From contig NC_090709.1 of NCBI RefSeq assembly GCF_040954835.1, positions 46,394,976 to 46,458,975 on the forward strand: a stretch of DNA of 64,000 nt, given 5' to 3'. A program made the translations under genes and the position numbers. The notes under the pieces are model-generated. The model ran no database searches, was not told the DNA's origin, and saw only the letters and a program-made list of their open reading frames with translations. The DNA is from Lepisosteus oculatus. Lineage: Eukaryota > Chordata > Actinopteri > Semionotiformes > Lepisosteidae. Position 1 is the first letter of the stretch. Every line of letters begins with the position of its first letter. This document shows positions 1 to 62,253 of the stretch, piece by piece.

Positions 1-179
1 GAGAGAAGCCAGGGTATCGGCTTCAACCACAGGGCTGGGCAGCTTGTTCCCCACCCCCACCACTCTCTGAGTAGAGGTGCACCTCCTCTCAATATCTTTT
101 TACAGCACGATCACACCCATAAGAGTTGAGTAACGGTAAAAAAAACAACGTATTTCTCCACTTATTTTGTTATTTCTCA

Positions 180-420
180 CTTTTGACTGACTTACCGATT
201 TCACGGGGATTCTGAAGAGCGTTTCTGAAGTTGAAACTAACGATCTAAGTCGAAGTAACTTTATTGGAAGAAACACGTGTTTAGAAAGGACTATATAGCG
301 CTTTCCTCCTCTTCTCTCTTCACTCCTCTGAGCTCATGGGGCTCCGGCGCCGCCCCCCCGCTAGAATCCGCCGCTCTGTGACGTCAGGCGGCTCATTGTG
401 ACGCCTCCGTGACGTCGCTC
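180..420 (-). promoter_or_regulatory. U promoter and noncoding exon 1, copy A (gene runs off the window)
   Basis: Read on the minus strand: TGACGTCG (410-417), a full palindromic CRE TGACGTCA (379-386), a GC-rich stretch, TATA-like CTATATAG (291-298), the palindromic E-box AAACACGTGTTT (about 271-282), then a strong donor ATCG|GTAAGTCAGTC ending an untranslated exon at 196. The start site should be about 265. The same order occurs in four copies. CREB/ATF and bHLH binding is inferred from consensus only. Confidence 0.5.
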
Positions 421-1290
421 CCAGCCGGGTGTCCCTGTACGACCCCGGTAGTCGCCACCTCGGACAGGCAGGGGAAACGGGTCCAGCTGTTTCCGGCCCA
501 AGGCTTACAAAAGCTGCACTTGAATTTAAAGACAAAATCACGTCGAGGGCGCATTCAGCACCCCCACGTCCAACACGGGTTTCCGTGGGGTTTGGTTCAG
601 TGAAATTAGACCCCCCCCGCCGACCCCCAAATCAAAGAAAGACCAAACTCCACCCCCCTCTAGCGCCCAAGGGCGGAAATTTCGGGCCACGCCACGTCCA
701 AAAAACACGGGTTCCCCCCCGTCCTGCGGGGAAAAGAAACGTCATTTTCTTTTCCGAGCGCTGCGTGGGACCTCACGACCCCCCCCCCCCAAAAAAAAAA
801 AAAAACGGGCTTCGCAGACGAGGAAAACCAGGCACGTCGACCTCTCTACAACACCACCCGGCTGTTTCTGTTTCAAACCGTGGGAAAAAAATAAATACAA
901 TTTCGCCCCTCACCGACCGCCGCGCAAAAAAACACAACTTCACGCTACAGAAACGGCCTGTGTGAGGGGGGGACACGGGAAAAAAATAAAACCTGCGTGT
1001 TTTCGGCAGAGTAAGCTCAGCGGGGAAACTCCCTGAATCTCGGGGTTGCTTCTTGAACCCCGAAAACGATCTTTTTTCTCTCTCTCCCTCTCTCGTTTTC
1101 TTGGTGTCTGGGACGTTCACGAACTCCGCCGCGTCGGTGCGATTCCCAGCGGGACTTGAACATAACCCCCCCCCGTGGGGCCACAACGCCCCCGTGTGGC
1201 CGAGAGGACCACCACCCGCAGGGCTGAGCTTTTACTGCCGTGTCCCGCTTTCACTCTGGCGATGAAGGAGGGAATCAAGGAGGAGAATTA
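420..1290. other. CpG-rich element upstream of U promoter, copy A
   Basis: C- and G-run-rich, CpG-rich DNA with several homopolymers (C8-C10, A10+). Copies lie at 8,220-9,070, 41,000-41,855 and 50,035-50,865. The end carries a GTGTGGCC-type motif and a short conserved segment ending in aaggaggagaattaat. I see no gene I can defend. Short open frames differ between copies through homopolymer length. Confidence 0.4.
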
Positions 1291-1299
1291 ATATTGTGA

Positions 1300-1490
1300 T
1301 CCACCAGTCCATCACAGGACACACACACACCCTGGACAGGACACCAGTCCTTCACAGGATACCAGTCCATCACAGCCAGTGTCTCATGGGTGTCCAGGCT
1401 GGGTACCATCTGTCCATCACAGGACACACAGACACACACACTCACACACCCTGGACAGGACACCAGTCCATCACAGGACACACACACATA
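1300..1490. repeat. CACA minisatellite (block 1)
   Basis: Units of the type CCAGTCCATCACAGGACACA plus a CA run plus CCCTGGACAGGA. About 5 units of variable length. Confidence 0.85.
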
Positions 1491-1790
1491 TTATATTTCG
1501 CGAGGTATAATACGGGGGGAAAAAGAACATTTATATTTATCAACCTACTAGTAATACTGGGTGGATGTCACGTTCCCCAAAGTTCAGTGCCTCTCTCTAA
1601 TAAAGTAGAAATGCGACATTAAACTCCCTTCGAAACGGGAGAAATCACCAGGACACGATACACCTTGCTCCGGACGATGGGAGAAGACCTGTACCTTCAC
1701 GAGTCCGGGTTGTGAAAACTTCTTCTGGCAGTTCAAAACGTTTCGAAGAGACTACATCGCTACCCTGTGTTCCATTTCTATCATGTATTA
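1490..1790. repeat. Conserved linker repeat of U blocks
   Basis: Contains TATTTCGCGAGGTATAATA, CTCTAATAAAGTAGAAA and GTTCGAAACGGGAGAAATCA. Whole or partial copies lie at 9,478-9,690, 18,840-19,060, 34,480-34,680, 42,588-42,790 and 50,985-51,165, and an isolated piece at 16,375-16,585. No coding potential seen. Confidence 0.6.
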
Positions 1791-1859
1791 TTATACAGTC
1801 ATAAGTATCTGTACTGATCACAGAGTCCCCCTCTCACTGCCAGGACTGAAGCCCAGTGC

Positions 1860-2310
1860 AGCACGAATAATAATAATAATTAATAAGTCTGGACTCTCCC
1901 CTCAGAGCTCTTCCCAGTTCAGGGGGATCCCCTCCAGCCCCCCCAGTGTGCAGCCCCCACCTGGATGATGCTCCAGTCCGCTCAGCACACAGCAGCTCTC
2001 AGTGGGGAGGAGAGCAGAGGGATGGAGCCAGTTCAGAGACGGGGGTGATTAGGAGGCCATGATGGGTCAAGACCAGGGGGGGAATCAGGCCAGGACACTG
2101 GGGTAACACCCCTACTCTTCTCCAGAAACACCCCGGGATTGTTAATGACCACAGAGAGTCAGGACCTTGGTTTGACGTCTCATCTGAAGGACGGCGTCTG
2201 TTTACAGTCCAGTGTCCCCGTCACTATACTGGGGCATCAGGACCCACACAGACCGCAGGGTGAGAGCTGCTGGCCCCACTCACACCTCTCCCAGCAGCAA
2301 CCTTAGTTTT
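1860..2310 (+). repeat. Dispersed ~470-bp fish repeat (SINE-like), copy 1
   Basis: Runs from an AAT-rich end to CGCAGGGTGAGAGC..GCTGGCC. This copy has lost the GCCCCC of the CTCF-like site. Confidence 0.7.
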
Positions 2311-2700
2311 TCCCAGGAGTCTCCCCTCCAGGTACTGACCAGGCCCCCACCTGCTGGGCTCCAGTGGGGAGGGGGCTGCCAGCTGGGAGCTGCAGGGTGA
2401 GATGGCTGCTGGGCAAACGATGGCTAAAGATCTTCCTAGGACACCCTGGACTTCGTGGTCGACTTCCTGCTCTTCAGACGGAGGTGGCTTGAAATCTGTC
2501 TCGTTTCAAAGAGTATTGGACACGATGCCCCCCCTGCTATATCCCCGCCAACTGGTGGCACGCCGACGACGAGGGCTCTCGGCCTCAATCCGTCAACCAC
2601 AAACTCTCCGGGATGAAAGAGAAGGACAGACTCTGTTCGTTCGTTTCAGGGAGGGGGAGGGAAAAAAACAAAAGCTAAACAATTTTTTTTTAAAACCATT
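2310..2700. other. Segment unique to the first U block
   Basis: About 330 bp not found in the other U blocks, apart from a short piece (GCTCTCGGCCTCAATCCGTC) shared with 24,764-24,792. Short open frames only. Not recognised. Confidence 0.4.
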
Positions 2701-2744
2701 TTAATGATGCTTAACAAAAGAACAAAAATTACAATACAGATTAA

Positions 2745-2860
2745 GTCCAGTCTGGGGACCCTCAGCTTAGGTCCAGTCCAGTCTAGGACCCCTCAGCTTC
2801 GGTCCAGCACAGTCTGGGGCTCCTCAGCTCCGGTCCAGCACAGTCCAGTCCAGATCTTAG
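2745..2860 (+). repeat. 31-bp minisatellite (block 1), short
   Basis: Only about 3-4 units of the CTGGGG(T/C)CCCTCAGC repeat. Confidence 0.8.
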
Positions 2861-3214
2861 CAGGCACAGAACCAGGAAAGGAACCTGGAAAGAATATTGT
2901 TAATGCAGGTGTGAGGGACACAGACACAGACGTCACCATGACATCAAACAGCAAGAGGAGACTCCTCCTTGAATCACAGACACGACCGAGCGGCGCCCCT
3001 CTGTCTGCTCACCTGCACCTCCTCTTCTTCTTCTTGTCCTTCCCGGCATCCTGCTCCTCCTCTCCCTCGCTCTTCCTCTCCTGAGCTACGGTCTCCGCCA
3101 CCTCCATCGGTTCGTCCTGATCATCTGTCTCCACCGACACGCAGCTCAGGGAGTTTAAAAAGACCCACCAGCGCTTCTGAAGCAGAGACAGGAGAGTCAC
3201 GTTTAGAGTCGGAC

Positions 3215-3480
3215 TGGACACTCCAGGACATGAACACTGCACTGAGAGAGAGAGGGGTTCATACAGACACATGACTGGACACTCCAGGACATGAACACTG
3301 CACTGAGAGAGAGAGGGGTTCATACACACACACACTGACTGGACACTCCAGTACATGAACACTGCACTGAGAGAGAGAGGGGTTCATACAGACACACTGA
3401 CTGGACACTCCAGTACATGAACACTGCACTGAGAGAGAGAGAGGGGTTCATACCAACACCCTGACTGGACACTGACTGGA
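3215..3480 (-). repeat. 62-bp minisatellite in U intron (block 1)
   Basis: Unit ACTCCAGTACATGAACACTG plus a GA-rich tract plus GGTTCATACAGACACACTGA, about 4 copies. Confidence 0.85.
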
Positions 3481-3719
3481 CACTGGACAGGAGTAAAGAG
3501 AGGATCAGAGCATTACCCACCTTCTTTTTCTTCTGTCTCACAAGAGATGGTGATTGGACCTCCTCCAGCTGGAGTCCGAGGAGGGAGAGAGGGGGCAGGA
3601 GAGGGACAGCACAGGGAGAGAAAGAGAAAGACAGGTGAGTCAAGTGTCCCAAGAGCACCGAGACTCTGCTGAGATCACACTCGCAGTGAGTGAGCCTGGG
3701 TGTAGCCCACTAATACTGA

Positions 3720-4000
3720 CCCACTGGACACCACAGGACAGAGAGGAGGAGGAGGAGAGAGACACACTGCCTGGACACCACAGGACAGAGAGGAGGAGGA
3801 GAGAGACACACTGAGGACAGAGAGGAGGAGGAGAGAGACACACTGAGGACAGAGAGGAGGAGGAGAGAGACACTGACAGACAGGGCTGAAAGAGAGAGAG
3901 ATAGAGAGGCAGGGACAGGCAGACAGCAGGCTGAGAGAGACACTGACAGACAGGGCTGAAAGAGAGAGAGACACTGAGACCCAGGGACAGACAAGACGGC
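3720..4000. repeat. Purine-rich GAGGAGGA/GACACACTG repeats (block 1 intron)
   Basis: Short tandem units of GGACAGAGAGGAGGAGGAGA type. Equivalents lie at 21,670-22,020, 24,900-25,050, 37,430-37,600, 45,030-45,380 and 53,790-54,030. Confidence 0.75.
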
Positions 4001-4189
4001 GAAACTCCACCACAGACAGGACAGGAGGCAGGGTGGGACCAGCACTGACCTCCTTCCTCTCTCCTGCCGGAGGAGCTGTCTCCACCTCCTCTTCCTCCTG
4101 CAAGTCAAGAGACAGGCTGAGAGAGAGACGGGCTGGTGGGACATCGGCGAACAGAGCTGAAGGCAGAGAGCCTTCGGGCCCAGCTGGGA

Positions 4190-4565
4190 CAACGCAGGAC
4201 AGACAGAGAAACAGACAGGGAGACACACGGAGAGACACAGGGAAAGAGACCCAGCTGTGACAACACAGGACAGACAGAGAGCAGGTAGACAAATGGAAAG
4301 ACACAGGGAGAGAGACAGGGAGAGAGGGACAGACACAGAGAAAAAGAGAGACTCAGACAGAAGGACAGAAAGACAGAAAGAGAGAAGTACAGACGGACAA
4401 AAAGACAGAGAAAATTACAGATGGACTGATGTACATAAAGACAGAGAAAAGGAAAGAAAGACAGATGGAGAGAAGGACAGATGGACAGAGAAAAGAACAG
4501 AAAGTCAGAAGGACAGAAGAAAGGACAGAAGGACAGAGAAAAGGACAGACGGACAGACGGACTCT
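4190..4565. repeat. Polypurine GACAGA-type tract (block 1 intron)
   Basis: Strongly purine-rich on the plus strand, with units such as GGACAGAAAGACAGA. Part of the U intron between the acidic and proline-rich exons. Confidence 0.8.
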
Positions 4566-4979
4566 GCCCCACTTGCCTCGTCAGACATCTCAGCCTCTCT
4601 CCTTGCCCGCCAGGCGGGGCCTGGCGGGGCCGGGCGGGCGATGGGGGGCAGGACGGGCGGGGGCAGGGGCAGGGGCACCGCCCCAGGCAGCAGGGGGGGC
4701 TCGAGGGGCATGGCGGGGAGGAAGGGGGGGCGGCGGGGCGGGGCGGGCAGGGGCCGGAGGGGGGGGGGGCGGGGGCGGGGAGCGGATTGGGCTCTTGGGC
4801 GAGGAGGGGGGGGACACCGAGCGGGACAAGCTGGGCGACCCCGGGAGCTCCAGCTGCAGCTCAGCCGCCCTCTCCAGTTTCTGGACGAGCTCGGGGAAAC
4901 AGGAAGACACCACGGGATTCTGTCCAGCGGTGAGAGGGGGAGACACAACGCAGGGGGGATGAGGAGCAGAGACTACGCC

Positions 4980-5415
4980 TGGACAGGTGAGTGTGTACAG
5001 TGTGTCCAGTGAGAGTGTGGACAGGTGAGTGTGTACAGTGTGTCCAGTGAGAGTCTGGACAGATGAGTGTGTCTCTACAGTGTGTCCAGTAAGAGTGTGG
5101 ACAGGTGAGTGTGTACAGTGTATCCAGTGAGAGTGTGGACAGGTGAGTGTGTACAGTGTGTCCAGTGAGAGTGTGGACAGGTGAGTGTGTACAGTGCGTC
5201 CAATAAGAGTGTGAACAGGTGAGTGTGTACAGTGCGTCCAGTAAGAGTGTGGACAGGTGAGTGTGTACAGTGTGTCCAGTAAGAGTGTGGACAGGCGAGT
5301 CTCACAGTGTGTCCAGTAAGAGTCCGGACAGGTGAGTGTGTACAGTGTGTCCAGTAAGAGTCCGGACAGGCGAGTGTGTCCAGTGTGTCCAGTAAGAGTG
5401 TGGACAGGTGTGTCC
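4980..5415. repeat. 38-bp GTGTCCAGT minisatellite in U intron (block 1)
   Basis: Unit CAGTGTGTCCAGTAAGAGTC plus TGGACAGGTGAGTGTGTA, about 11 copies. Each unit carries CAG|GTGAGT on the plus strand. Confidence 0.88.
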
Positions 5416-12410: not shown

Positions 12411-12670
12411 GTTTGACCTTGAGAGATCTGTAATGCTGAGTTCTCACTGGAGCAGTCCGATATGATGGTCAATAAAAGGTCCAGGAAAGTCAAAGCTGGT
12501 CGCTCCCAGAACAGGACAACGCAAGCTCAAGTATCAATTCATGAAGTTTGTGGGTTTTAATGGATCCGGCCTGAGCAAGCCTGGTTCAGTTAGCAAACGG
12601 GCGGCCCACGATCGGCTTTCAACTCATTTCACAACTGCGGTCTCTCATCCTGTGTTTTGGGTTGTTTCAG

Positions 12671-14197
12671 AACGCCTGGAGAAAACGGACTCCGACTACT
12701 GTCTGGCGCAAACCCCACTCCCAGCTGGTAACGGTAAGATCCGAAGACCTTTTAGAACAGGACTTGTAAATATTCCCCTTCCATCGTCGTCAGAAGTATG
12801 AAGTGGCTCTGCGGGTTTTTTTTAAAAACCCAGCGACACCGACTTTGTCTTCACCCGCAGCGGAGCAGGTCAAGGTTTATCCCTGCGCTGGAAGGACAGG
12901 AAAAGAGACGCGGCGTTTCGGCCGCGGAGCCTCCTTCGGGCGCATGAAGCCGGAAAAGACCACAGTCGAAATGTCGCGTCTCTTTCCCCTCTCTCTCGGC
13001 CGCGTGGAACGATCCCGTACCTGCTGCCTCTGCGGCCTGCGGGTGGCCAACACGGCCCCCTCCCTGACCGTTATCCCTACCTGCCGCGCGTCTTCAGCGA
13101 CGCTTCCCTGACCGTTATCTCTCTTTCAGGAACCGCGGCACCGCAGGAATGCCATTACTCCGTGATCCAGGATCCCGGGCCCGCGGGCGGAAGTAGGTTT
13201 TGCCTTCTCGCGTGTAAGGGCTCGCAGGGCTCAAACAGCAGCGGCGGGGGGCGGCGAGACGCCTGTGGTGCGCGGGCTTGCTAGGTCAGTGCGAGGTGAA
13301 GTCGGGGCAGAGCCCCTGGACCACAGCCCCACCACCGGGAGCTCTGCTAAGTGGTGGGTTGGGCAATCATTACTGGATACGAGTGTCAAGTGTCAACACG
13401 AGTGTGAGCAGCGTCGATTCGAGTGTGAACGGTGTCGACACGAGTCCTGTTGGTCAGTACAGTGTCAATGCGAGTGTGAACAGTGAGTCCGGTTCCGTAC
13501 AGTGTTAACTCATTGAATTCCTTCTTGCTCTGCACAGTGTTAACGGGTGAGAACACGTGTTTTATTCTTTGCAGAATTAACACAGACAGATACTGCTGTT
13601 GAATACTCCACAGTCAACAAACCCTGAGCCGCACAAAGTGAGGATCTTTTACTTCTATCTATTAAACTAGCAGAAATAAAACATCATGATAACTTCTTGC
13701 TGCTCTGTCCAGTTTTAACACAAGTGTGAACATTTGTAATAATAGTGAGTCCTGCTGTTGTGTACAGCGTGAATACAAGCGTGAACAGTGAATCCTGTCG
13801 TCTGTACAGTGTCAATACGTGTGTGAACAGTGAGTCCTGTTGTTCAGTACAGTGTCAATACGCGTGTGAACAGTGAGTCCTGTTGTCTGTACAGTGTCAA
13901 TACAAATGTGTGAACAGTGAGCACTGTTGTTTAGTATGGTGTTAATGTAAGTCTTATCCTGTAAAGTATAAGTAAACATAAGTATTGACCTGTATCCTGT
14001 TCTCTACAGACATCACACTACCCAACAGGGATGTGGAGTACGCCACCGTCAACAAACCGAGAGCAGCACAAAGTGAGGACTTTTTAAACTCTTTACCACA
14101 GTATAGAACCCACAGGAGTAATGAGAAGGACACTAAAAACAACAACACTGATAGTGAACAAGAGATTTTGAACAATACACATTCTAGTCAGATTTAA
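12671..14197 (+). CDS. Immune-receptor cytoplasmic tail, four 63-nt tyrosine-motif exons (J block 1)
   Basis: Four exons, 12671-12733, 13130-13192, 13575-13637 and 14010-14072, are each exactly 63 nt and phase 1-1. Each has one tyrosine at residue 10 or 11: TDSDYCLAQT, ECHYSVIQDP, AVEYSTVNKP and DVEYATVNKP. The last two fit the ITIM pattern (V-x-Y-x-x-V), the second fits loosely (C at -2), and the first is degenerate. Acceptors are pyrimidine-rich; donors are GTAAGA, GTAGGT, GTGAGG and GTGAGG. If exon 4 is not spliced it reads on to a stop at 14195-14197. That gives a terminal tail rich in N, S and T. The third exon has TGA for CGA in NKPRAAQ, so this copy may be truncated there. Tails like these recruit SHP phosphatases in Ig-type receptors. 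No ectodomain or membrane exon is visible in the same orientation. Confidence 0.55.
13380..13530. repeat. Minisatellite between ITIM exons (J1, part 1)
   Basis: Units of CAGTGTCAATACGAGTGTGA / ACAGTGAGTCCTGTTG type. A second stretch lies at 13,740-13,945. Confidence 0.75.
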
Positions 14198-25639: not shown

Positions 25640-25799
25640 CTGTACTGGGGGACACAGCTGGCTGTGCTGTTCTGGACAGAACACACTGAGGTCCAGTTTC
25701 CACCTCCTGCAGGATCAAACAGCACCCCCACTGGCTCTCCAGTGAACAGAGGGACAGACAGAGAGGCTTCAGGCTGCAGGGTGACAGTGTCTCTGTGAG
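25640..25799 (-). pseudogene. Second Ig exon, truncated (copy 1)
   Basis: An acceptor (TTTCAG) at 25,800 opens an exon reading AHRDTVTLQPEASLSVPLFT, then PVGVLFDPAGGGNW and SVQNSTASCVPQY. It resembles the first half of the preceding Ig exon and then runs into T-rich DNA without a clear donor. It is probably a broken second domain. Confidence 0.4.
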
Positions 25800-25889
25800 C
25801 TGAAAGACAATCAGGACAGAGGATGATAGAAGAACACACTCTGTCAAGAATATAGAGCCCTCTAGTGAACCTACTGTGGACCTGCTCAC

Positions 25890-26168
25890 CGCCCACAGTG
25901 ACGATCACAGTGCTGATACTGCTTCCCTTAAGGTCCCTCACTGTGTAGCTACCCTGATCAGCTGGAGTGAGGGAGCGGAGTGTCAGAGAGCTGTTCTGCA
26001 CTGACACTCACTGTTCGTACCTGGGGCCAGGGAGCCCTGCGTTGCTCAGTAAGACTATACGAGACTGGACAGATCCTGCAGGATCAAACAGCACCTCCAC
26101 TGGACCAGCAGTGTGGAGGGGGAGAGATAGAGAGGCACCAGGCTGCAGGCTGTGGACTTCTGAGTGAA
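25890..26168 (-). pseudogene. V-type immunoglobulin domain exon, with in-frame stop (copy 1)
   Basis: A 279-nt phase 1-1 exon with acceptor TTTTCAG and donor GTGAGC. It reads VHSLQPGASLSLPLHTAG, then VEVLFDPAG, SSLTLRSLTPADQGSYTV and SSISTVIVTV. The D-Q-G-x-Y signature marks a V-set F strand, but the usual cysteine after Y is absent. This resembles fish SLAM/CD48-like domains. TGA follows RYEQ in the middle of the domain and is shared with the copy at 54.9-55.2 kb, so the stop predates the duplication. Confidence 0.55.
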
Positions 26169-26530
26169 CTGAAAAGGGACAGGTAGAAACATGTTGAATA
26201 TTTAGTTTTACAACAATACCTTGAGTTTGGACTGCGATCAGCTTCATTTTGTATTTCAGCTGTGAAAATGCAATTTCAAAAATGCACGCCCCAGTCATGT
26301 TAGGTTCAAGTTACAGTTGCATCACAACTCAATACATTTGCAATTCACTTCAAATGTTGTTTTTGTTTGATCCAGTCTGTCCTCACCTAAAGGAGATATA
26401 GACTCAGTCTTTGGAATTTGTATATATATATATTTCAGTGATCCCTCAGCCATTCCTTCTGTATTGTAATTCAATTTCTCTTTTAAAATTCCTTCCCCAC
26501 TTCTAGGACCTGCAGTTGCTGAACTCCACA

Positions 26531-27006
26531 ATGGCTTCTATTGGAAAGTCTGTGACTGAGACCAAGTAAGTGTTCACTTTTTTATGAAACCATTATTTAT
26601 TTTGGAGCAATGAGCAATTCTTATATAAATACAATAAAATCATTATGCTCAAACTATGAGAGAGAAAAGGATAATTTAAGAAATCAGTCTTAGCTTGTTT
26701 CTATACACAGATGGTATTATTTATTTTCAAAGGAAACCCACGAGGATTCCCCTGGTGTGCAAGATGTGCCTGAATACTTTTGATCAGCTTCCTGCTCACT
26801 TGAAGAGGGCGTGTATGAAGCACGCCACAGCAGAAGAGATCAGGATGGCCTCTCAACAGGCGAGGAAGGACATGATAAATCACCTGAAGAACATCGTGGA
26901 TTACAACAGAATAGAGATCGTGTCTGGCGAGGCAAACAGGGCAGTGGTTGTAAGACTGCTGGAGTCCTTGGCATTAGGGACTAAATATACTAAACGTATG
27001 TGCTAA
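26531..27006 (+). CDS. Small two-exon gene with a CxxC zinc-finger-like N-terminus
   Basis: Exon 1, 26531-26565, starts at ATG (MASIGKSVTET) and ends in phase 2 at AA|GTAAGT. Acceptor TTTTCAAAG at 26,732 continues in phase as KPTRIPLVCKMCLNTFDQLP, then AHLKRACMKH, IRMASQQARKDMINHLK and NRIEIVSGEANRAVVVRLLE. C-x2-C followed by H, C and H spacing (CKMC...AHLKRACMKH) suggests a zinc-binding module followed by helices. Similar segments head multicopy uncharacterised fish proteins (from memory, not checked). The frame ends 11 codons into a local repeat that starts GCATTAGGGACTAAATATAC, so the 3' part may be lost. The upstream sequence (26,460-26,530) is pyrimidine-rich. Confidence 0.45.
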
Positions 27007-29364: not shown

Positions 29365-29900
29365 AATTAACACAGACAGATACTGCTGTTGAATACTCCA
29401 CAGTCAACAAACCCCGAGCCGCACAAAGTGAGGATCTTTTACTTCTATCTATTAAACTAGCAGAAATAAAACATCATGATAACTTCTTGCTGCTCTGTCC
29501 AGTTTTAACACAAGTGTGAACATTTGTAATAATAGTGAGTCCTGCTGTTGTGTACAGCGTGAATACAAGCGTGAACAGTGAGTCCTGTCGTCTGAACAGT
29601 GTCAATACGCGTGTGAACAGTGAGTCCTGTTGTTCAGTATGGTGTTAATGTAAGTCTTATCCTGTATAGTATAAGTTAACATAAGTATTGACCCGTATCC
29701 TGTTCTCTACAGACATCACACTACCCAACAGGGATGTGGAGTACGCCACCGTCAACAAACCGAGAGCAGCACAAAGTGAGGACTTTTTTAACTCTTTACC
29801 ACAGTATAAAACCCACAGGAGTAATGAGAATGACACTAAAAACAACAACACTGATAGTGAACAAGAGATTTTGAACAATACACATTCTAGTCAGATTTAA
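29365..29900 (+). CDS. Immune-receptor cytoplasmic tail, two ITIM exons (J block 2)
   Basis: These are copies of the last two exons of the 12.7-14.2 kb series: 29365-29427 (AVEYSTVNKPRAAQ) and 29713-29775, or to the stop at 29898-29900 if terminal (DVEYATVNKPRAAQ then SEDFFNSL...). The stop seen in the third exon of copy 1 is CGA here, so this copy is open. The first two exons of the series are absent, because the duplication starts within the minisatellite at about 28,850. Confidence 0.5.
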
Positions 29901-54490: not shown

Positions 54491-54624
54491 ACAATAATTT
54501 GGTTTCGAAATTTATTCTGAAAATATACAATCATTCACTCCTGAAAAATATCGAGTTCAAATTATACATTATGTACAATATTGTAATCAACATATGGCTA
54601 ATCATCAAAAAAAAAAAAAAACTG

Positions 54625-54781
54625 TACTGGGGGACACAGCTGGCTGTGCTGTTCTGGACAGAACACACTGAGGTCCAGTTTCCACCTCCTGCAGGATCAA
54701 ACAGCACCTCCACTGGCTCTCCAGTGAATAGAGGGACAGACAGAGAGGCTTTAGGCTGCAGGGTGACAGTGTCTCTGTGAG
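54625..54781 (-). pseudogene. Second Ig exon, truncated (copy 2)
   Basis: A copy of 25,640-25,799 that reads VTLQPKASLSVPLFTGEPVE, then FDPAGGGNWTSVCSV. It ends in an expanded T run on the minus strand. Confidence 0.4.
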
Positions 54782-54871
54782 CTGAAAGACAATCAGGACA
54801 GAGGATGATATAAGAACACACTCTGTCAAGAATATAGAGCCCTCTAGTGACCCTACTGTAGACCTGCTTAC

Positions 54872-55150
54872 CACCCACAGTGACGATCACAGTGCTGATA
54901 CTGCTTCCCTTAAGGTCCCTCACTGTGTAGTTGCCCTGATCAGCTGGAGTGAGGGAGCGGAGTGTCAGAGAGCTGTTCTGCACTGACACTCACTGTTCGT
55001 ACCTGGGGCCAGGGAGCCCTGCTCTGCTCAGTAAGACTATACGAGACTGGACAGATCCTGCAGGATCAAACAGCACCTCCACTGGACCAGCAGTGTGGAG
55101 GGAGAGAGACAGAGAGGCACCAGGCTGCAGGCTATGGACTTCTGAGTGAG
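54872..55150 (-). pseudogene. V-type immunoglobulin domain exon, with in-frame stop (copy 2)
   Basis: Same 279-nt exon as at 25.9-26.2 kb with few substitutions, the same in-frame TGA after RYEQ, and donor GTAAGC. Homology between the two copies runs from about 53.8 to 55,378 and then stops abruptly. Confidence 0.55.
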
Positions 55151-58613: not shown

Positions 58614-58686
58614 TGTTTCCGCCCGGTCTCGAACCGGGGACCTTTCGCGTGTTAGGCGAACGTGATAGCCGCTACACTACGGAAAC
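58614..58686 (-). tRNA. tRNA-Val (AAC)
   Basis: A full 73-nt cloverleaf: acceptor GTTTCCG/CGGAAAC, anticodon loop CTAACAC, T-loop GGTTCGAGACC. A TTTT terminator follows within 15 nt on the minus strand. Sequence matches the vertebrate Val-AAC type. Confidence 0.95.
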
Positions 58687-58795
58687 CTGCAGGGACCGCT
58701 GCTGGTGTCTCGCTTGCGTTTCGGGCTGAGAAAGGGACGCGTCATTTTAGGTAGGTGGCGCTGGAGAGAGGAACAAAGGGCGCGATGAAACAAAA

Positions 58796-58868
58796 TGCCG
58801 AAACCCGGGATCGAACCAGGGACCTTTAGATCTTCAGTCTAACGCTCTCCCAACTGAGCTATTTCGGC
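58796..58868 (-). tRNA. tRNA-Phe (GAA)
   Basis: A 73-nt cloverleaf GCCGAAATAGCTCAG... with anticodon context ACTGAAGAT and T-arm GGTTCGATCCCGG. TTTT directly follows on the minus strand. Confidence 0.96.
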
Positions 58869-59679
58869 GGTGTGCAAAGCCCATAGCCACCTGCTCCAGC
58901 CTTCCTGTGTTGTGGCATGAGCGCACCAAGAGTAGCGGGAGAGTGTTGCAGGAACGTCACTCAGAAGGAAAGCCACCCAGCTGCGCCCTCTGAGCTCTGT
59001 CCAGCGCATCTTCCTCGCATGGACTCCTGCCTGCGACGGGCAGGAAACAATTAGCCAGAACAGAACGACACCCCATGGGTGTCTCATGACCGCACCTTAG
59101 GTTGTGACACGTGCAGGTGTGAGGGGTTGCCAGGCTACTTTGGAGCAGAGCTTGGGCGGAGGGGGGGCGGGAAAGCAGACAAAGAGGTGACACCTCAAGG
59201 TCTGCACGATCACAGCTCTCCGCCGCCCCAGGCTTCCGCTCGATAAGCTACTGGACACACCCGCCCCTCCTCACACAGACCGTGGAAAAGCCCCCGAGTG
59301 GGAGGGCTCGCTCTTCCTCCCAGGAGCTCTTGGACACGACGCCCAGACAGGGCGCGGGGAGCCGCCGCCTGCAAACACGGCTCCAGGCAGGACTCCACTC
59401 CGCAGGAGCCGCAGAGCAGAGGAGATGAGGGCAGCTTAGCTCCTGTGCAGAGACCTGAGCTGTTGTTGCTGTGGATGCTGTCTTTTCTGCACTCGGGGTA
59501 GGAGTGAATGTTGAGTTGCACTTAGAAATGAAGCAGAGCACTTCAACGGCACGGGTGTGTGTGTGTGTGCGCCCTGGTGATTCTGGGAGACAGATCGAAC
59601 CTGGGCTAAAAGAGAGGGGGCTTAGCCCTCTTCCATTTGCTAGTTCAAAGTTGTACAACCCCTTTGTATCTGCTAGGCG

Positions 59680-59892
59680 GCGCAGTCGTCGTGCACAAAG
59701 AACACTTTGAAAAGCGTCAAAGGCAAGTCATTCCGAGTTGGTCGTTTGTGTTTTCCGTTCAGACGCGAAATGCTGACATGATCTCTCGGCTCCTCGGTTG
59801 TCATTTCTGCTCCGTAAAGGGATCACAGCACGCGTCGGCTTCCAGCATGCTGGGTCGGGACACGATGCCGGGGGTTGGAGAGAGCGATGTCT
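59680..59892 (+). repeat. tRNA-cluster spacer repeat, copy 2
   Basis: Copy of 58,205-58,430. It directly precedes the intact Asp tRNA. Confidence 0.75.
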
Positions 59893-59964
59893 TCCTCGTT
59901 AGTATAGTGGCAAGTATCCCCGCCTGTCACGCGGGAGACCGGGGTTCGATTCCCCGACGGGGAG
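59893..59964 (+). tRNA. tRNA-Asp (GTC)
   Basis: A 72-nt cloverleaf beginning TCCTCGTTAGTATAGTGG and ending CGACGGGGAG, with anticodon loop CTGTCAC and an intact T-arm GGGGTTCGATTCCCC. TTTT follows at about 59,970. Confidence 0.95.
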
Positions 59965-60174
59965 TAGCTTTTCTTTCACCTCCTTAGAGAAATGACTGCC
60001 TTTCACTTCTCTGTTTTCTTTCACAGCGTCGTGCACCTTTTCATTGCTCTCGCTTTCAGAGCCTCCGCACGGCAGTCGACTCGACATCAGGAAGCACATT
60101 GAAGTGAAAGCAGGAAGCGCTGCGACATGCACTGTGCAGATCCCGCCACACTAAGAGGTGAGTGGGTCTGTTCG

Positions 60175-60376
60175 ATGCACAAAGAACGCTTTGAGAAGCG
60201 TCAAAGGCAAGTCATTCCGAGTTGGTCGTTTGTGTTTTCCGTTCAGACGCGAAATGCTGAAATGATCTCTCGGCTCCTCGGTTGTCATTTCTGCTCCGTA
60301 AAGGAATCACAGCACGCGTCGGCTTCCAGCACGGTGGGTCGGGACACGATGCCGGGGGTCGGAGAGAGCGATGTCT
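60175..60376 (+). repeat. tRNA-cluster spacer repeat, copy 3
   Basis: Copy preceding the second Asp relic. Its 5' end is joined to a different flank. Confidence 0.7.
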
Positions 60377-60440
60377 TCCTTGTTAGTATAGGACCTGTCA
60401 CCTGTCCCCACCTGTCACGCGGGAGACTGGGGTGCATCAG
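60377..60440 (+). pseudogene. tRNA-Asp relic, second
   Basis: Same rearranged form as at 58,423-58,485 (one acceptor change, TCCTTGTT). It shares the defect, so it arose by duplication of an already dead copy. Confidence 0.7.
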
Positions 60441-60585
60441 GACGCGCCTTGAAGTGAAAGCAGGATGCGCTGTGACATGCACTGTGCAGATCCCGCCACA
60501 CTAAGAGGTGGGTCCAGTGGGTCTGTTCGATCACAGCGCTAGGCGAATCCCCAATCCCCTTTTGTGCCTGGCGACAAAATATGTC

Positions 60586-60658
60586 TGTTTCCGCCCGGTT
60601 TCGAACCGGGGACTTTTCGCGTGTGAGGCGAACGTGATAACCACTACACTACGGAAAC
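60586..60658 (-). tRNA. tRNA-Val (CAC)
   Basis: A 73-nt cloverleaf like Val-AAC but with CTCACAC in the anticodon loop and one change in the variable region (GAAAAGTC). TTTT follows on the minus strand. Confidence 0.92.
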
Positions 60659-60659
60659 A

Positions 60660-61085
60660 GTGGTACGACATGCCCAGCGGCCCAGCGCTGAGCTTCGCCA
60701 ATGCGATTCAGCTGCTTCCAGTGCCTTTATTGGAGTGCGCTGATGGACCGTGCTCTCTCTCCAGAGACCAGCACGCCTGTCATGGACGGAGCAGGAAAGG
60801 CGGCGCCACATTCTACAGCCCTCTCCACGCAATCGACGAAATCGGGCTACTGAAGTGGAGAAAATCGCCTCTCCAGAAAGTGCAAATATCATCTTGGAGA
60901 CTTTAAATCCTATTGCCGAAGGTCAGCCCTGTCTACCAGAGTAACCCTCCCACAGCGATGATCAGCTCGTCTCACACGCGAGAAGTTTCGGTTGGAAACA
61001 AGCGCCCCCTCTTCTCGCACGTTTTGCACGTTCGAGTAGTTTTAATGCGGCTCTTTCGTACACGGTGCTGATCTTTTGGAAAGCA
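60660..61085. other. tRNA-cluster spacer without a gene
   Basis: Mixed spacer between Val-CAC and the Glu relic. Nothing recognisable. Confidence 0.5.
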
Positions 61086-61088
61086 GGA

Positions 61089-61150
61089 GGCAAAACCGAG
61101 TCGAACCGCCTGGGTGAAAACCAGGAACCCTAACCGCTAGACTATATGGC
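61089..61150 (-). pseudogene. tRNA-Glu (TTC)-like, T-arm deleted
   Basis: On the minus strand, ATAGTCTAGCGGTTAGGG and TCCTGGTTTTCACCCAGG match the D and anticodon arms of tRNA-Glu-TTC. The 5' half of the T stem is missing and the acceptor strands pair poorly. Confidence 0.65.
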
Positions 61151-61352
61151 AGCGAACAACCATGCTGTTCCCGGCATCATGCAAGCAAACTACATAAATA
61201 TGAGAAAACACGCAAGAGAGTTGTCACTCAGAGTGTCGAAGGGTCGATGTATACTGGGGCTCAGTTGAAATGCAACGTCAGGACTTTTCCGAATTATGTC
61301 ACACGAAGAGAGCACAGCCCTTTCCGCCCTGCCGCGTGTGTCTCGGTAACTC

Positions 61353-61424
61353 GCTGTGATCGTATAGTGGTCAGTACTTTGCGTTGTGGCCGCAACAACT
61401 CCGGTTCGAATCCGGGTCACGGCA
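61353..61424 (+). tRNA. tRNA-His (GTG)
   Basis: A 72-nt cloverleaf GCTGTGATCGTATAGTGG...TCACGGCA with anticodon loop TTGTGGC. It differs from the common vertebrate form at several sites, but stem pairs are kept (TTGCG/CGCAA in the anticodon stem, a wobble pair in the acceptor). TTTT follows near 61,440. Confidence 0.9.
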
Positions 61425-61439
61425 GAATAGGGGCGTCTG

Positions 61440-61910
61440 CTTTTACTACTCGCACGAATGAAGGCAAAAAAAAGCCAATCGATGTGAACGAACGGCGCTT
61501 TACAGAGGAGTACTGCCTGACTGGATCGTTGATGAACGACAGAGGCCACTCCGACCTCTTCTCGGTTTTCTTCAATGACTTACTAAGGATCTTCTTCACA
61601 TTCGCCCATGCAGGGGAAGCCAGTTACACCAAAGCAAACGCAGGAAAGTGCATTTCAAGCAGAGACCAGGAGGGACTTGTTTACACCGAGAGTGGGCGGA
61701 GAATGGAACAATGCGCCCAGCCCTGTTGCTGGAGCCGATTCTTGATGAGCTCTTGGGCTCACTAAGAGGCCCCCGCTGGATGCTAATCTTTCTGTTGTTC
61801 TTGCAGGTCCTGCGCTGCTTTTGAGCCGACAGAGCTCGTCCTGGTCTGTCGGCACAGCCCAATTGCAAATGATCGGCTCCGCGTACAGAAGGAACGTGCG
61901 TTTGGTACAA
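61440..61910. other. tRNA-cluster spacer without a gene
   Basis: An open frame of about 170 codons crosses the His tRNA on the plus strand, but it starts and ends in spacer DNA and has no recognisable domain. I treat it as chance. Confidence 0.4.
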
Positions 61911-61998
61911 GAGTGCACGAAGGCACCGGAAATACATTGGGAACAAATGACCGGACGCTCAAGACCTCTGTGAAGTACAGGAGCGTGCAAAACGAGGC

Positions 61999-62071
61999 TG
62001 TTTCCGCCCGGTCTCGAACCGGGGACCTTTCGCGTGTTAGGCGAACGTGATAGCCGCTACACTACGGAAAC
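61999..62071 (-). tRNA. tRNA-Val (AAC), second copy
   Basis: Identical in sequence to the gene at 58,614-58,686 and part of the same direct duplication. TTTT terminator kept. Confidence 0.95.
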
Positions 62072-62180
62072 CTGCAGTGACCGCTGCTGGTGTCTCGCTT
62101 GCATTTCGGGCTGAGAAAGGGACACGTCACTTTAGGAAGGGGGCGCTGGAGAGAGGAACAAAGGGCGCGATGAAACAAAA

Positions 62181-62253
62181 TGCCGAAACCCGGGATCGAA
62201 CCAGGGACCTTTAGATCTTCAGTCTAACGCTCTCCCAACTGAGCTATTTCGGC
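62181..62253 (-). tRNA. tRNA-Phe (GAA), second copy
   Basis: Identical to 58,796-58,868, with the same flanks, from the direct duplication. Confidence 0.96.

Follow-up and report, generated by a model that had tools for sequence, protein, structure and literature searches.

The window analysed here is a stretch of 64,000 nucleotides of Lepisosteus oculatus (C14:46394976-46458975, contig NC_090709.1), and the genome searched is its own 1.2-Gb assembly. On the plus strand of the window lie four segments of 63 nt each, e1 (12671..12733, RLEKTDSDYCLAQTPLPAGN), e2 (13130..13192, TAAPQECHYSVIQDPGPAGG), e3 (13575..13637, VEYSTV) and e4 (14010..14072, VEYATV), which we call copy A, preceded by an intron remnant (12572..12670) whose first base marks where the fragment is truncated at its 5' end. 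The original prediction that all four are ag/gt-bounded, symmetric phase 1-1 exons was borne out by both the coordinates and a splice-score scan, and its placing of a tyrosine at residue 10 or 11 of each also holds when the split codon is counted (among the 20 whole codons alone it is residue 9 or 10). VEYSTV and VEYATV satisfy the ITIM consensus S/I/V/LxYxxI/V/L and YSVI of e2 satisfies YxxI only, but YCLA of e1, which had been counted among the tyrosine signalling motifs, has Ala at +3, fails YxxI/V/L and is no ITIM. The two near-identical ITIMs of e3 and e4 were thus read correctly, but the NKPRAAQ assigned to both reads NKP*AAQ in e3 of copy A, where an in-frame TGA is present (13625-13627). 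A second copy in the window consists of e3 and e4 only, so that e1 and e2 are present once; its e3 (29365..29427) is open with CGA at the position of the TGA and is the sole NKPRAAQ of the window's two e3, and its e4 (29713..29775) is identical in DNA to that of copy A. The hexamer AATAAA occurs at 13675 and 29465, soon after e3 in each copy, and therefore e3 could have been a terminal exon with its donor unused. Between e1 and e2 lies a dispersed repeat (12862..12985, inverted arms 12899-12927 and 12960-12988) with short matches on other contigs. Elsewhere in the window, seven tRNA genes (Val, Phe, Asp, Val, His, Val, Phe; ARAGORN, five also by Rfam) were found at 58614-62253, apparently inside a duplicated block, and an open frame at 26731-26976 (RKPTRIPLVCKMCLNTFDQLPAHLKRACMKH...) has a zinc-finger-like pattern with nothing above the Pfam cut-off.

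On both strands, the splice-score scan took in symmetric phase 1-1 segments that were open and 30-330 nt long. At an acceptor score of at least 4 and a donor score of at least 3, three segments were obtained on the plus strand, all of them 63-nt ITIM exons (e4 of copy A, and e3 and e4 of the second copy), and eight on the minus strand, all of other lengths. When, after the exons had been seen, the thresholds were relaxed to values that just let exons 1 and 2 through, 63-nt segments made up 5/9 on the plus strand and 0/17 on the minus strand. Exons e3 and e4 share 44/63 bases, and in their 13 C-terminal codons seven bases differ with a single amino-acid change (simulated P 0.001); six of the seven differing codons are silent, versus 1/6 and 0/6 in the other two frames. 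Judged from this pattern of substitution, e3 and e4 were formerly translated in their present frame.

No convincing transmembrane or Ig exon was present on the plus strand of the window, and upstream of the tail exons on the same strand at 12 of the twenty 10-kb loci described below, the search for Ig ectodomain exons gave weak pattern hits only (L010, L012, L023). The hydrophobic hits of these scans coincided with minisatellites, runs of isoleucine or AT-rich sequence. On the minus strand of the window, Ig V-like exons are present at 25642-26169 and 54624-55148, each with a TGA. They belong to a family of which 149 of the 150 listed matches (the best 150 of 430 candidates) are on C14; 100 of these 150 have one TGA and 41 are stop-free. 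Among the matches listed, the family extends along nearly all of the 60-Mb C14 (3.9-59 Mb), with stop-free relatives mainly at 40-46 and 53-59 Mb. One relative, L047 (C14:41875400-41884399), has a stop-free open frame with two Ig V-like domains (Pfam V-set 35.2 bits, cut-off 26; best PDB match CEACAM8, E 0.011) and, 1.7 kb further on, a hydrophobic segment taken for a putative transmembrane exon, and none of e1-e4 was found within its 9 kb. An E/R-rich tandem-repeat stretch of L047 (DDGETGEEEAQSERRESG), 3' of the hydrophobic segment, may encode a tail. The minus-strand Ig pieces were rejected as the ectodomain of the tail exons, being on the opposite strand, interrupted by a stop in both copies and part of another family, and since no tail exon was seen in the 9 kb of the stop-free relative, an Ig-type receptor was not demonstrated. 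Very large V-set clusters, in keeping with a jawed vertebrate, at C18 3-19 Mb and C30 7.4-7.7 Mb hold most of the best 150 of 2007 candidates, and none of these 150 listed matches to Pfam V-set is on C14.

The tail exons themselves are repeated. A degenerate DVEYATVNK pattern with at most three mismatches was found at 141 places in the genome, versus 35 for the reversed pattern. Among the matches listed, 52 are of e4 type (44 with no mismatch and 8 with one; 51 on C14 and 1 on C29) and 42 of e3 type, and four further rows with two mismatches, on C2 and C26, are chance-like. We examined 38 loci (twenty of 10 kb, and eighteen of 2.6 kb extending 2 kb upstream of e4) together with the two copies in the window, and in these e1 was present in 17 copies, e2 in 15, e3 in 35 and e4 in 40. 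The module content varies by locus: among the twenty 10-kb loci and copy A there were 11 with e3+e4, 8 with e1+e2+e3+e4 and 2 with e1+e2+e4, and among the eighteen 2.6-kb loci 11 with e3+e4, 3 with e1+e2+e4, 2 with all four and 2 with e1+e3+e4. Stretches of the loci without a match to the window contain, among other things, transposon-like open frames, including a 350-residue frame that we take to be Tc1/mariner transposase-like (L015 4405-5454, reversed orientation) and frames of 600 and 485 residues beside e3-e4 copies (L012 1346-3145, L026 1065-2519), presumably LINE-like (endonuclease, reverse transcriptase). L016, L018 and L026 each have an unmatched flank at 1-5103.

A second class of the e4 motif, DVEYATINK, occurred at five places among the matches listed, and at four of these a diverged e1 lies no more than 6.4 kb away. 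One fuller locus (C14:9549700-9566699, comprising L049 and L048) was examined in full, and on the plus strand of L048 it holds a predicted signal-peptide exon whose donor at L048:412 is in phase 1, a predicted transmembrane exon of 111 nt (L048 5009-5119, phase 1-1), a predicted 63-nt FYEVI exon (L048 5355-5417, phase 1-1, SQTKPEPFYEVIKDTGARAS), a predicted e1 (L048 5535-5597), a predicted 57-nt exon with the YYSL module (L048 6897-6953, phase 1-1, RQMNDYYSLAKPPGADGK), a predicted e3 in which Tyr is replaced by Phe (L048 7367-7429) and a predicted e4 with a weak donor (L048 7734-7796). The stretch of transmembrane and FYEVI exons has matches at no more than four loci, each on C14 (~9.56, 51.28, 56.31-56.32 and 57.36 Mb), versus 52 places for the e4 motif among the matches listed; the transmembrane search also gave weak short matches elsewhere, confined to the intron part of the query. 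The signal-peptide exon matches the same four loci, at ~4.0-4.6 kb from the transmembrane match in each. When the predicted parent was used as query at the protein level, 143 candidates were scored and 137 of them matched at E<=10, without exception on C14 or C29. The 57-nt module was present at two loci (9.57 and 4.50 Mb) and absent from the 1.1 kb examined at 51.28 Mb, where the signal-peptide match contains a TGA. Given this TGA and the Tyr to Phe change in e3 of L048, the four fuller loci may include dead ones.

Between the signal peptide and the transmembrane exon of L048 we saw no ectodomain exon, five open frames from this interval had no Pfam match at E<=1, and no Ig exon was seen at L048/L049. 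By our estimate the predicted product would expose about 17 residues outside the cell, one of them Cys, and would have one transmembrane segment and several tyrosine motifs, and we tentatively describe the parent as a short-ectodomain inhibitory transmembrane adaptor, at slightly less than even odds. Compared with Pfam, this product reached a sub-threshold score with HGAL (GCSAM/HGAL; E 0.005, 17.3 bits, cut-off 27), and in PDB it gave weak matches of its transmembrane segment to neuroplastin and basigin (best E 0.009). The joined tail peptides matched nothing in Pfam at E<=10 and nothing above the cut-off in NCBIfam; their best PDB match (E 0.12), to an unrelated protein, was rejected. In the literature we recognised no paper on this gene.

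Comparison of the copies with L048 revealed where the fragment was cut. In 17/17 examined copies with e1, the window's included, homology to L048 begins at L048:5436, which is 19 nt downstream of the FYEVI exon and corresponds to 12572 in the window; at two additional loci, not among these 17, the e1 match begins inside e1. A common start point in all 17 indicates a single 5'-truncated founder, and thus many copies with one truncation point were found, as expected of an amplified 5'-truncated fragment. The 17 e1 copies are without FYEVI exon, transmembrane exon and signal peptide by common descent.

Variation among the copies was then compared by exon. The ratio of changing to silent variants was 9:5 in e1, 6:7 in e2, 5:4 in e4 and 11:2 in e3 (15 rows for e1 and e2, with L032 and L039 left out as being without e2; 40 rows for e4; 33 of the 35 rows for e3, two having below 90% coverage, all 35 also yielding 11:2). 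Against expected changing fractions of 0.66, 0.63, 0.68 and 0.73 for e1, e2, e4 and e3, which assume a fivefold CpG transition rate, no exon is deficient in changing variants (P 0.55, 0.17, 0.31 and 0.91, respectively). Nor were exon sites less variable than their flanks at p<0.05 in any comparison: the CpG-rich e1 and e2 are more variable (24/126 versus 50/535 sites, p 0.004), and e4 (9/63 versus 55/278, p 0.37) and e3 (13/63 versus 17/128, p 0.21) do not differ significantly. A lesion (loss of a splice site, stop, frameshift or loss of Tyr) was found in 9/40 copies and none in 31/40, the in-frame stop of e3 being present in 2/35 e3 copies. Relaxed constraint (31:18 in total) is thus accompanied by disabling lesions, which is the pattern of an amplified truncated fragment. 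The e4 tyrosine is retained in 40/40 copies and the e4 donor gt in 39/40, and because divergence is so low, these intact sites and the 31 lesion-free copies are expected even without selection; some headless copies could conceivably be in use. Older changes were read from L048 against the repeated fragment (changing:silent 1:5 in e1, 2:2 in e4, 4:1 in e3) and from L050 (2:1 in e3). The pooled old changes (e1 and e4 of L048, e3 of L050) give 5:8 versus the recent 31:18 (p 0.13), and addition of the e3/e4 pair gives 6:14 (p 0.017), the difference being significant only with that pair. The older comparisons therefore appear mostly silent, counter to the recent copies, but e3 of L048 is an exception at 4:1.

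We also asked how the tail had been assembled. When the five module types (FYEVI, e1, e2, YYSL and e3) were aligned by their tyrosines, the second Tyr of YYSL being chosen by the analyst, the sum of pairs was 75 versus a shuffle mean of -120 and was reached by 0/5000 shuffles, although a common acidic start and a Pro/Gly-rich end could raise this score. Among pairwise comparisons, FYEVI and e1 have no similarity (P 0.72) and most other pairs gave P 0.001-0.03. Since the five module types look homologous, the tail of the parent was probably built by duplication of a symmetric exon. The modular exon amplification of the original prediction is therefore probably right for the parent gene, and the tail tunable within the window, to which it had been tied, did not stand.

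Several known systems offer partial likenesses. The transmembrane adaptor LST1 (leukocyte-specific transcript 1) is described as having an extracellular part that is very short and bears a cysteine for dimerisation, one transmembrane segment, many splice forms and a tail whose two ITIMs bind SHP1 and SHP2 (PMC8111073). The parent predicted from the L048 exons would resemble it in its short ectodomain with one Cys, single transmembrane segment and several tyrosine motifs, and would differ by its signal-peptide exon and by a tail of five phase 1-1 exons measuring 57-63 nt each; this likeness is one of layout, and the short ectodomain is predicted from one locus. The cytoplasmic part of PECAM-1 (CD31) is reported to be encoded by eight alternatively spliced exons, and isoforms without exon 14 to be unable to bind SHP-2 (PMC5664058). 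PECAM-1 has six Ig domains, whereas no Ig ectodomain was seen at L048 and the window copy is without a transmembrane exon. The Xenopus FcR-like (XFL) receptors are likewise described with Ig ectodomain exons, none of which were found here. In the account of salmonid NILT, fish receptors with several ITIMs form a tight cluster that includes pseudogenes, and a single long last exon in phase 0 contains the ITIMs (PMC3022915), unlike the one motif per 63-nt exon in phase 1-1 found here.

Taken together, about fifty copies, nearly all headless and freely changing, lead us to read the array of the window as a gene fossil that duplication has multiplied, rather than as a working adjustable receptor tail (probability about 0.85). 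The exon structure of the DNA, the copy numbers, the common breakpoint and the variant pattern were directly observed. Chance open frames flanked by chance splice-like sites can practically be dismissed: without a splice score, 63-nt AG/GT pairs with an open YxxL/I/V number 10 on the plus strand and 38 on the minus strand, but the ITIM exons stand out once splice scores are applied, the e3/e4 differences are silent-biased, and the same exons occur at a locus with a transmembrane exon. We consider the original proposal, a working receptor tail in the window with signalling adjusted through the number of 63-nt ITIM exons, most unlikely; the uniform symmetric exons, their splice sites, frames open except in e3, and module numbers that differ among loci would suit such a tail, but the fragment is cut 3' of the FYEVI exon, no convincing signal-peptide, transmembrane or ectodomain exon adjoins it on the plus strand, e3 has a stop, and constraint among the copies was undetected. 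Very unlikely, too, are headless copies spliced onto other genes or feeding modules to the fuller loci by gene conversion; the largely intact splice sites (39/40 e4 donors) and the different modules of the fuller loci speak for this; against it, no constraint was evident and no such chimera was seen. A broader version, in which C14 carries an undescribed family of inhibitory transmembrane adaptors with short ectodomains whose tails, made from a duplicated 57-63-nt phase 1-1 tyrosine exon, are still gaining and losing modules from locus to locus with the dozens of headless copies as a reservoir, is speculative and in our view improbable.

The alternative that deserves more weight agrees that the array is a fossil and takes a receptor, Ig-type or other, for the parent, its ectodomain exons having been lost or gone unrecognised at L048. 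The known receptors of this kind with ITIMs usually have an Ig ectodomain, the ~4.0-4.6 kb between signal peptide and transmembrane exon at the four loci leave room for ectodomain exons, and the L048 interval is full of repeats. That no Ig-like exon was seen in this interval, its five Pfam-negative frames, and the absence both of V-set matches on C14 and of the local Ig family in the signal peptide-transmembrane intervals (0/150 listed matches in each search, the V-set ones from 2007 candidates) weigh against it, and we regard such a parent as possible but somewhat doubtful.

Under the gene-fossil reading, the window would contain the 3' part (e1-e4, then e3-e4) of a gene whose product spans the membrane and bears several tyrosine motifs. 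A single piece of it, truncated at the 5' end 19 nt 3' of the FYEVI exon, would have spread in segmental duplications of C14, leaving headless copies that have no adjacent signal peptide, transmembrane or FYEVI exon and vary with no detectable constraint. The parent would be represented by the four loci that match the signal-peptide exon, the transmembrane exon and FYEVI; with its exons spliced as predicted, its product would present ITIM-type tyrosines at the membrane, probably recruiting SHP-type phosphatases, and may be inhibitory. Splice sites, phase and motifs persist in the proposed fossil array since the copies have so far diverged little. What looks like a convincing array of exons can thus be a gene fossil, betrayed only by copy number, a common truncation point and the variant pattern, and the four fuller loci would be the place to test directly a tail built of repeated tyrosine exons.
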